Below are positions 17,151 through 18,895 of a stretch of DNA of 33,495 nt, piece by piece. A program made the position numbers and the translations under genes. The notes under the pieces are model-generated. The model saw only the letters and a list, made by a program, of their open reading frames with translations. It was not told where the DNA came from and did no database searches. The stretch's first letter is position 1. Each line of letters opens with the position of its first letter. The DNA comes from Porphyromonadaceae bacterium (lineage in GTDB: Bacteria > Bacteroidota > Bacteroidia > Bacteroidales > UBA12481): contig QYQM01000020.1 of the NCBI GenBank assembly GCA_007280905.1, forward strand, positions 1-33,495, read 5' to 3'.

Positions 17151-17630
17151 TTAGTTCAACTGATCCAGAATAAAGTTGATTTCGTTGATTATGCCATGGG
17201 ACGAGTAGGTGGCTCCGGAAATTGCATCGATATTTTTGTGTAGGGCAAACGAGCTATCGGTTTTGGCATAAAACTGGGCGAGCCACTTCTTATTGGTGAT
17301 TTCAGATCCATACTCAGAGCGGTACTTCAGAATCCGGATCAGGCTGATTTTACCGGCCGGATCAACCACCACCATCAGATCAAAACGCTCAAACCGTCCC
17401 TGTGCCGAGGTCAGCACCAGGGTACCCATAGTTTCACCCGTCCGGTCCAGCATCCGGTAAAATTCGCGGGAGTCGATGGTTTTAATGTATTCTGCCTTTT
17501 CAAATGAATCGGACCAAGTGGTCAGTTCCTTCGTAACCTGCTTATTATAAGCTACCCGGAAGGGTTGGTCGGGGGTAGCAGACACACCCACGAAGCCCAA
17601 AAGAATGATCAGTAAACGGATCATGGTCAA
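17151..17630 (-). CDS. Exported FMN-binding domain protein
   Basis: A 159-residue single-domain protein with an N-terminal signal-like hydrophobic segment (4-17). The FMN-binding motif is DAISGATYSS (135-144); in NqrC/RnfG-type domains the threonine of SGAT (here T141) carries FMN by a phosphoester bond made by an ApbE-type flavin transferase outside the cytoplasm. It would therefore be a small periplasmic flavoprotein for electron transfer. It lies 6 bp after the porin gene, in one operon. No ApbE is encoded here. The partner that gives or takes the electrons is not visible. An ATG two codons in (17624) is an alternative start. Confidence 0.85.
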   Translation of the reverse strand: MTMIRLLIILLGFVGVSATPDQPFRVAYNKQVTKELTTWSDSFEKAEYIKTIDSREFYRMLDRTGETMGTLVLTSAQGRFERFDLMVVVDPAGKISLIRILKYRSEYGSEITNKKWLAQFYAKTDSSFALHKNIDAISGATYSSHGIINEINFILDQLN

Positions 17631-17636
17631 TTGTTT

Positions 17637-18821
17637 TTAAAACCAAACGCCGATACCGGCATTCAGGTAGGTTATAAAGCTGCTGTCGGCCTTTGATTTC
17701 CGCATCCGTGCATCCACCTTGAAAACGGCTCCCTCGGCAGGTTTCCAGCCCAGGCCAAACACATATTCATTAACGCTGAATTTGTTCTGGCGGGTAGTTC
17801 CCGGATCAACCGCGAAATGCGTGTCATAATGCTCGAACCGCAAGAATGGATTCAATTGATGCGAGCTGGAGGTATGCCTGAGTATGTTATAGGACTCTTC
17901 AATGTAATATCCGGTAACTGCCGAACCGAGATCGCTATGGGTAAAACTGTTGTAAGCCGCACTATTTGACTGTTTTGCGTAGATCAATTGTCCCCTCACA
18001 TGGAACCCTTTCCAACTGTAGCGTACATCCAGGCCAACCATGGCAATCCCGACCACTGTTGAATCGGCGCGGTCCGTAAGCAGGTTATCAGACTTATCCA
18101 GATTATTGAACATTGCCGATTGCGTATCTCCGAAATAACCGGCGAGACCAATCTTCAATCCCATGATCCCGTAATAATCCAATTTGGCCGAAAGGTTGGG
18201 TGCCGATAGGAAAGACTTTGCTCCCCGCTGACGGCCATTCCGCAGATAGCCCGATCCGTTCAGTGTGCCTTTGCCATCTAAACCATAGCTACTGAAGCCG
18301 TTGACAAGGTAAACCTGGTATTTGAGCCCAATCTCCTGAAACCGGCCGGTAAAACCGGCACCGATCTCCCGCCAGGTGGTTGGAACGATCGTATTATCGA
18401 CCATCGGCCGCAACACCCCATTATAGGCGGTCGGTTCATGGTATTCATTTATGATCCCCATCGGGATTAGCATAAGTCCGGCGCGGAAGCTGAGTGCATC
18501 GTTGAACGTATGATTCAGAAAAGCCTGCTCAACGTACAACTCCTTAACGTGTTCGAATTCCACTTCGGTGAGGAACTGGGTTTTTTCGGAAAACCGGTAG
18601 CCCATGCTTATAACCATTCTAGATACGTCCAGACTGGCATTGGACCGTTTGCCCGATTGTAGCTGGGTAGTCATGTCCACCTGCGCATATCCGCCAATAT
18701 TGAGCTTTTGAGCGGTATTCGAAATCAGAGTCGAGGCCAGATTCTGTGGACTGTTATCCTGCTGGCCGAACGCCGAAACGGCAGCCACACTAAAGAAGAA
18801 AGAGTAGATAAGTCTTTTCAT
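17637..18821 (-). CDS. Outer-membrane porin (OprO/OprP-like beta-barrel)
   Basis: A 394-residue outer-membrane protein with a signal peptide (1-19, cut after AFG) and beta-strand alternation throughout, ending GIGVWF with the expected terminal aromatic. Segments such as FLTEVEFEHVKELYVEQAFL and FRAGLMLIPMGIINEYHEPT resemble the phosphate-selective porin O/P family (FxxGxxxxPxG after the strand-forming region). In Bacteroidetes, such porins often sit with FMN-binding proteins, and the pair is associated with metal or iron supply, but substrate specificity is not shown here. It is the first gene of a two-gene operon with the FMN-binding protein, under a promoter with a palindrome in its spacer. 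Confidence 0.8.
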   Translation of the reverse strand: MKRLIYSFFFSVAAVSAFGQQDNSPQNLASTLISNTAQKLNIGGYAQVDMTTQLQSGKRSNASLDVSRMVISMGYRFSEKTQFLTEVEFEHVKELYVEQAFLNHTFNDALSFRAGLMLIPMGIINEYHEPTAYNGVLRPMVDNTIVPTTWREIGAGFTGRFQEIGLKYQVYLVNGFSSYGLDGKGTLNGSGYLRNGRQRGAKSFLSAPNLSAKLDYYGIMGLKIGLAGYFGDTQSAMFNNLDKSDNLLTDRADSTVVGIAMVGLDVRYSWKGFHVRGQLIYAKQSNSAAYNSFTHSDLGSAVTGYYIEESYNILRHTSSSHQLNPFLRFEHYDTHFAVDPGTTRQNKFSVNEYVFGLGWKPAEGAVFKVDARMRKSKADSSFITYLNAGIGVWF

Positions 18822-18839
18822 CGTGATAAATTTTAATCA

Positions 18840-18871
18840 CAAAGATAGACTTATTTGTATTAAGTCTAAAT
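18840..18871 (-). promoter_or_regulatory. Porin/FMN operon promoter with palindromic operator in the spacer
   Basis: On the minus strand, TTTA is followed after exactly 19 bp by TATCTTTG (18840-18847 on plus), matching TTTG-N19-TAnnTTTG with one change. The spacer holds the palindrome TAGACTTA-N7-TAAGTCTA (18846-18868). A repressor bound there would block RNA polymerase. The shape suits a Fur/DtxR-type metal repressor, but that is inference. Confidence 0.6.
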
Positions 18872-18895
18872 TAGAATAACGCTTCCCTTAACCAA

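Follow-up and report, generated by a model that had tools for sequence, protein, structure and literature searches.

The porin–FMN_bind operon and its products

On the minus strand of the window, i.e., of the whole stretch of 33,495 nucleotides that was analysed, an operon of two genes encodes an outer-membrane porin and an FMN_bind protein. The intergenic region that holds its promoter measures 119 bp. The relevant features are the following.

17151–17630, minus strand: second gene, FMN_bind (PF04205) protein of 159 aa, separated by a 6-nt gap; RnfG/NqrC fold; SGATYS motif; probably exported
17637–18821, minus strand: first gene, outer-membrane porin of 394 aa; N-terminal signal-like stretch; BBP2 below cut-off; beta-barrel model
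18835, minus strand: inferred transcription start, from TAnnTTTG at -12 to -5 (PMC9723704); leader of about 13 nt
18840–18847, minus strand: -7-type box TATCTTTG (Bacteroidota TAnnTTTG); consensus and location at -12 to -5 according to PMC9723704
18846–18868, no strand: inverted repeat TAGACTTA-N7-TAAGTCTA; left arm (minus-strand reading) within the Fur-type box, right arm not conserved
18851–18873, minus strand: Fur-type 7-1-7 box TAATTTAGACTTAATACAAATAA; 4 mismatches in 22 positions to TTATTTAGAMTNAKTCTAAATAA; top-scoring match of the window
18867–18870, minus strand: -33-type box TTTA; spacing unchanged in the two congeners with the gene

The model of the first protein is a beta-barrel (mean pLDDT 83). 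Its best matches are trimeric porins (OmpM1, PorB, OmpU), with a TM-score of about 0.5; a search by sequence up to E = 1 yielded no solved relative. The second protein matches PF04205 at 2.6e-8, and also RnfG and NqrC. Its SGAT lies at residues 138–141; S138, G139, T141 and S143 of SGATxS are invariant in 27 aligned sequences, and the [ST]GAT motif is found in 70 of 76 relatives. The bacterium's own genome encodes one ApbE (7.1e-84). The FMN_bind domain, the [ST]GAT motif and an ApbE in the genome are sequence attributes of an ApbE-flavinylated protein, and the protein is probably flavinylated by this enzyme.

Of 393 genomes from the order, 63 have a relative of the porin at E ≤ 1e-60 (a few of them partial) and 122 any match at E ≤ 0.001. 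Within the family, the gene is present in 3 of 12 genomes, the window's own included. Among named genomes, 269 stretches encode a porin relative, and 80 of these were kept. At 78 of the 80 loci, the porin gene is followed on its own strand by the FMN_bind gene; at 77 of 79 the two are direct neighbours. A record titled ‘archaeon’ (L153) contains a Bacteroidota-type porin–FMN operon, perhaps due to an error in binning or naming.

The promoter and a Fur-type box overlapping it

On the minus strand, TTTA (18870–18867) and TATCTTTG (18847–18840) are separated by 19 bp; counted from position 18821, where the porin gene begins, the ensemble lies 49 to 19 bases upstream. The first-pass annotation had taken it for a Bacteroidota promoter with a 19-bp spacer. 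The letters are indeed as claimed, and both congeners with the gene (G005 and G010) retain TTTA-N19-TATATTTG, which again reads TTTA-N19-TAnnTTTG. In flavobacteria, TAnnTTTG at -12 to -5 serves as the sigma-A box (PMC9723704); transcription should accordingly start near 18835. In the upstream regions of orthologs, TAnnTTTG was counted in 45 of 60, versus 19.8 expected, on both strands. For this count, and for that of TTATTTAGA given below, 60 of 71 upstream regions were used, duplicates and partial or odd starts being omitted.

The classical Fur box is of the 7-1-7 type, TGATAATNATTATCA. The site at 18851–18873 shares with it the 7-1-7 inverted repeat with one central base and the overlap with the promoter, by which a Fur-regulated promoter is recognised; boxes of its kind also lie before feoAB, superoxide dismutase and Fe-S genes. 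It differs in its half-site, here TTAGAAT or TTAGACT inside TTATTT...AAATAA, and in that the window copy is asymmetric, its right half being the weaker one. The box overlies the -33 element and the greater part of the spacer, so that the placement typical of repression, which had been proposed for this promoter, is borne out.

With a matrix made from four unselected sites of the own genome, the box scores 15.1 bits and the next-best site in the window 11.3; 2 of 2,000 shuffles of the upstream region were equally good (p = 0.0015). With a matrix confined to the superoxide dismutase, sufB and hemerythrin sites, and hence without feoAB and C59, its score exceeds that of each of 1,000 shuffles. 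All shuffles were first-order Markov resamplings. The matrices are built on 3–4 sites; the first ones used four sites picked with the genes in view, the later ones the four sites found at up to 3 mismatches, without selection.

The same box elsewhere in the genome

The Fur-type consensus is a 7-1-7 repeat of 23 bp, TTATTTAGAnTnATTCTAAATAA. At up to 3 mismatches, this 23-mer has 4 sites in the own genome, with 2 mismatches each. Three precede the genes for an Fe/Mn superoxide dismutase, for SufB and for a DUF438-hemerythrin-PAS protein; the fourth, on contig C59, lies between convergent frames. Having 4 mismatches, the window box is missed by this search. The 17-base core at 1 mismatch reveals a site between feoAB and a divergent Peripla_BP_2 gene. 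At up to 2 mismatches the core has 11 sites, 4 of which precede iron or oxygen genes (feoAB, sufB, superoxide dismutase and hemerythrin), while 7 (on C59, C171, C40, C41, C69 and two on C89) are without an evident iron gene. The boxes of feoAB, sufB, superoxide dismutase and the hemerythrin gene match the consensus better than the window box does.

The counts as such, 4 versus 1 in the backwards control for the 23-mer and 11 versus 26 for the core at up to 2 mismatches, do not prove enrichment in the genome. Without mismatch, the 23-mer is absent from the own genome, and a single genome out of 80 from the order has it; as an order-wide search pattern it was discarded as too strict. A search of the own genome with the window-type variant, TTTAGACTTAATNNAAATAA, gave 5 forward and 6 reverse matches versus 10 and 11 for the control; there is no second good copy, and the next best one has 2 mismatches.

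Two minor observations concern these sites. The C59 box (L077:1501–1523), a strong one, is identical in all 23 bases to that of the hemerythrin gene (L080); one of the convergent frames around it is a PLD-domain gene. On C171, a repetitive frame (L085, 177–587; RTPRGVRGLK...) resembles a CRISPR array read as protein and may be one.

Conservation of the box in relatives

From 151 porin upstream regions 128 distinct ones were obtained, copies that share the last 100 bp and L146 (2 bp) being omitted; L131 contains an N. With the four-site matrix, a box at p ≤ 0.01 was found in 42 of the 128 porin promoters, versus 11 of 344 promoters of neighbouring genes at the same loci; 86 of the 128 are devoid of a box at this threshold. 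Scores of at least 14 were reached by 40 of 128 and 9 of 344, respectively. The nine neighbours include a SufB/D-core gene, the FMN_bind gene of the operon itself at locus L115 and two LuxR-type regulators with receiver domains. When the feoAB site is included in the matrix and C59 left out, 39 of the 128 remain at p ≤ 0.01.

The box is also seen before feoAB. Among the best-scoring 30 feoAB loci from 99 genomes of the order, own genome and G005 included, 14 upstream regions have it at p ≤ 0.05 and 12 at p ≤ 0.01, by the matrix of the superoxide dismutase, sufB and hemerythrin sites; in 18 of the 30 there is none at p ≤ 0.01. Independent of any matrix, TTATTTAGA, a part of the 23-bp repeat, is common to 18 of 60 ortholog upstream regions, versus 0.9 expected. 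The matrix search of the ortholog upstream regions made use of 61 of 71, with the same kinds of omission as above.

Closer to the window, the four-site matrix yields p = 0.0025 for G005, 0.05 for G010 and 0.0005 for L095. Relative to the promoter, the G005 box is in register with that of the window. In G010, TTTAGTCTTAAT is kept in place, and the best matrix match is weak and shifted by 6 bp. Both congeners have TTTAG[AT]CT[AT]AAT at the same promoter position. In the next relative, L095 (56% identity), the box reads TAATTTAGAATAGTTCTAAATAA; compared with that of the window, it lies one base more distant from the gene and 7 bp more distant from the -7 box. At L115 the box, TTATTTGTATTAAGTCTAAATAA, agrees in 22 of 23 bases with the asymmetric variant of the window and lies on the opposite strand. 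The position varies among the porin promoters in general. Some boxes occupy the spacer, others cover the -7 box, follow the start or lie about 45–60 bp upstream. By eye, two Fur-type boxes can be read in each of the porin upstream regions of L132 and L151, one ahead of the -7 box, the other within the leader.

A candidate regulator

The own genome encodes one protein of the FUR family (PF01475, 97.3 bits), and its gene lies before purA. Inspection of 250 bp upstream of this gene by eye revealed no box. The DtxR profile PF02742 has 0 matches in the own genome, and its positive control matched in 11 of 14 genomes; on this one profile, control by DtxR or MntR was rejected. That a metal-sensing repressor acts on this promoter had been a guess of the first-pass annotation. 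Sites of the same type before iron genes, a single FUR-family protein and the lack of PF02742 support the guess as to the kind of regulator; they do not support the operator named there, which was the palindrome.

Flavobacterium psychrophilum likewise has a single FUR homolog, with its gene before purA; a heme/iron operon of this species is repressed by iron, although no fur mutant could be obtained (PMC9331221).

Proposed regulation and its alternatives

What is seen at this locus and in this genome is a conserved box in a defined position, which recurs before iron genes, besides one FUR protein, no PF02742 match and one ApbE. Taken together, these features make it likely that 18851–18873 is a Fur-type operator on the promoter of the operon for the porin and the exported FMN_bind protein, and that metal-loaded Fur represses the operon. 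When iron is plentiful, the metal-loaded FUR-family protein would bind the box and exclude RNA polymerase; when iron is scarce, the operon would be expressed. The products, the porin and an ApbE-flavinylated flavoprotein, would then serve extracytosolic electron transfer, most plausibly for reductive iron acquisition. Binding, its dependence on metal, the direction of regulation, flavinylation and the roles of the products we infer. Reductive iron uptake, in particular, is suggested by FMN-binding extracytosolic proteins that are linked to iron elsewhere (PMC8238504) and is not a result of this analysis.

The FUR protein could functionally be PerR- or Mn-like, and the operon would then respond to peroxide or manganese instead of iron. 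Among solved structures, the FUR protein best matches that of a peroxide operon regulator (2fe3, 7e-21), followed closely by a Fur (9ire, 3.8e-20); the NCBIfam scores for Fur and PerR are 84 and 82 bits, both far below cut-off, and the box precedes superoxide dismutase and the hemerythrin gene. Sequence does not settle between Fur and PerR. However, the box also precedes feoAB and sufB in the own genome, and feoAB in relatives as well, which favours Fur; the FUR protein is the only one found in the genome, and the single homolog of F. psychrophilum is accompanied by an iron-repressed heme/iron operon (PMC9331221). We thus consider a peroxide or manganese response as unlikely.

A less probable reading is that of a window box which has lost its function by decay, with a constitutive promoter and a palindrome due to chance. 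The 4 mismatches to the consensus and the weaker right half would fit, as would the lack of over-representation of the core pattern versus its control; yet the box is the best site of the window (p = 0.0015), and the two congeners with the gene keep TTTAG[AT]CT[AT]AAT in place relative to the promoter. Repression by metal-loaded Fur, acting on a somewhat degenerate site, is preferred here too.

The inverted repeat

The palindrome that had drawn attention to this promoter is real: read directly from the letters, TAGACTTA-N7-TAAGTCTA at 18846–18868 is an exact inverted repeat. When the 119-bp intergenic region was resampled 2,000 times by a Markov model, a perfect repeat with 8-bp arms appeared in 62 cases at loops of 0–12, and in 82 of a separate set of 2,000 at loops of 0–20. 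With 3–4% of the resampled regions containing an equal repeat, the palindrome is barely more than chance and, as a signal of its own, weakly supported.

It also fails to recur. The exact palindrome occurs once in the own genome (4.39 Mb, 185 contigs), and there is no further copy at 1–2 mismatches. At up to 3 mismatches there are 5 forward matches, 4 besides the window, versus 86 for the backwards control; the four were dismissed, since the genes near them, named by eye, form no consistent set. The scan that the first-pass annotation had suggested for similar sites before iron or manganese genes thus came out against the palindrome. Uniqueness in the genome, which had been named as what would speak against the site, applies to the exact palindrome but not to the overlapping Fur-type box. 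In relatives, the right arm TAAGTCTA is lost: the two congeners have CAATGCTA and TTAGATTA in its place. Nor does it recur in the sequence after the box in the 38 other orthologs listed; the closest approach is GTCTTG, in L151.

The Fur-type consensus sits 5 bp off the palindrome, and the left arm of the latter is contained in the box. The conserved feature is, by these comparisons, the Fur-type box, offset from the palindrome and a somewhat degenerate member of a known box type. The palindrome extends this box, in part by accident; its right arm most likely represents the last bases of the box plus chance. Of the original observation, the letters and the promoter stand; the palindrome as a conserved unit does not, given its chance level, its uniqueness in the genome and the loss of its right arm. 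That the full 23 bp are the operator of another, possibly local, repressor, a dimer of which would read TAGACTTA half-sites 15 bp apart, is the least probable explanation, for the exact symmetry, the placement in the spacer and the recurrence of the half-site variant ATTAAGTCTAAAT in L115 are outweighed by the uniqueness at 0–2 mismatches, by the absence of the right arm from both congeners and L115, and by an equal repeat in 62–82 of 2,000 resamplings. Palindrome as operator was accordingly rejected. Where the conserved operator lies a few bases off, even a perfect palindrome can be deceptive.

Relation to known iron and flavinylation systems

In Shewanella and Caulobacter, PepSY-like flavinylation systems have been described, some of the PepSY genes being repressed by Fur, and FMN-binding genes associated with P19 are also known (PMC8238504). 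The common denominator with the window is an extracytosolic FMN-binding protein tied to iron assimilation. The difference is the partner, here an outer-membrane porin, a pairing also seen in relatives; ‘porin’ occurs 0 times in PMC8238504 according to the search listing. Beside the window operon, PepSY, P19 or FTR1 genes were not noticed by eye in the window.

Titles and beginnings of abstracts from the literature search contain no description of this Fur box or of the porin–FMN_bind pair, and the parts seen of PMC10434189, PMC6613475, PMC4222909, PMC9331221 and PMC9723704, which deal with Fur, iron or transcription, hold no Fur-box consensus for this part of Bacteroidota. The analysis supplies a testable definition of such a box. 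The value of the window site is that it ties a widespread porin–flavoprotein operon to iron: the pair is placed in a likely iron regulon, which suggests what it does.

A second site in relatives

A different inverted repeat, A[AT]NCC-N8-GGN[AT]T, here called motif A, was detected in 61 of the 128 porin upstream regions, versus 1.25 in shuffles (maximum 3) and 3 of 344 control regions upstream of neighbouring genes. In 48 of 52 counted pairs, 30–31 bp separate its centre from a -7-like box downstream, which implies a position near -43. Carriers of AATACC-N8-GGTATT-like versions are, e.g., L011, L012, L015, L016, L026, L034, L052, L065 and L142. Motif A is absent before the operon of the window and in G005 and G010; in the own genome it is not clearly enriched (42 versus 25 in the control). 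By sequence and position it looks like a class II activator site, perhaps, at a guess, for an activator of the CdhR/NarL type.

Hemerythrin–CdhR pairs that respond to iron are known from Porphyromonas gingivalis (PG1236-37) and Bacteroides thetaiotaomicron (BT0519-20) (PMC10434189); CdhR is a regulator of hmuYR (PMC9666725). The likeness is a hemerythrin/RIC-like gene followed by a LuxR-type regulator before the porin operon of some relatives. The differences are that such a pair was not seen beside the window operon and that motif A is a candidate binding site only. At 13 of 79 loci the operon is preceded, on its own strand, by a cluster of LuxR-type regulators, and at 10 of 79 by one of RIC/hemerythrin-like proteins. 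Nine LuxR-type genes near the operon were checked for sites of their own; two upstream regions were too short, and the 7 readable ones, 6 with a RIC/hemerythrin-like gene in front, have neither motif A nor a box at p ≤ 0.05.

Tentatively, the operon might represent a cytochrome-free reductive iron module of the outer membrane, consisting of a flavinylated RnfG/NqrC-like protein and its own porin and widespread in Bacteroidota, which would be repressed by Fur and, in many relatives, activated at AATACC-N8-GGTATT near -43 by a hemerythrin-coupled regulator of the CdhR/NarL type; this wider proposal is clearly less secure than repression by Fur at the window promoter.

A RIC/hemerythrin-like gene and a LuxR-type regulator just upstream of the operon can be seen in L120 (4581–5899), and also in L125, L153, L162, L164 and L165.
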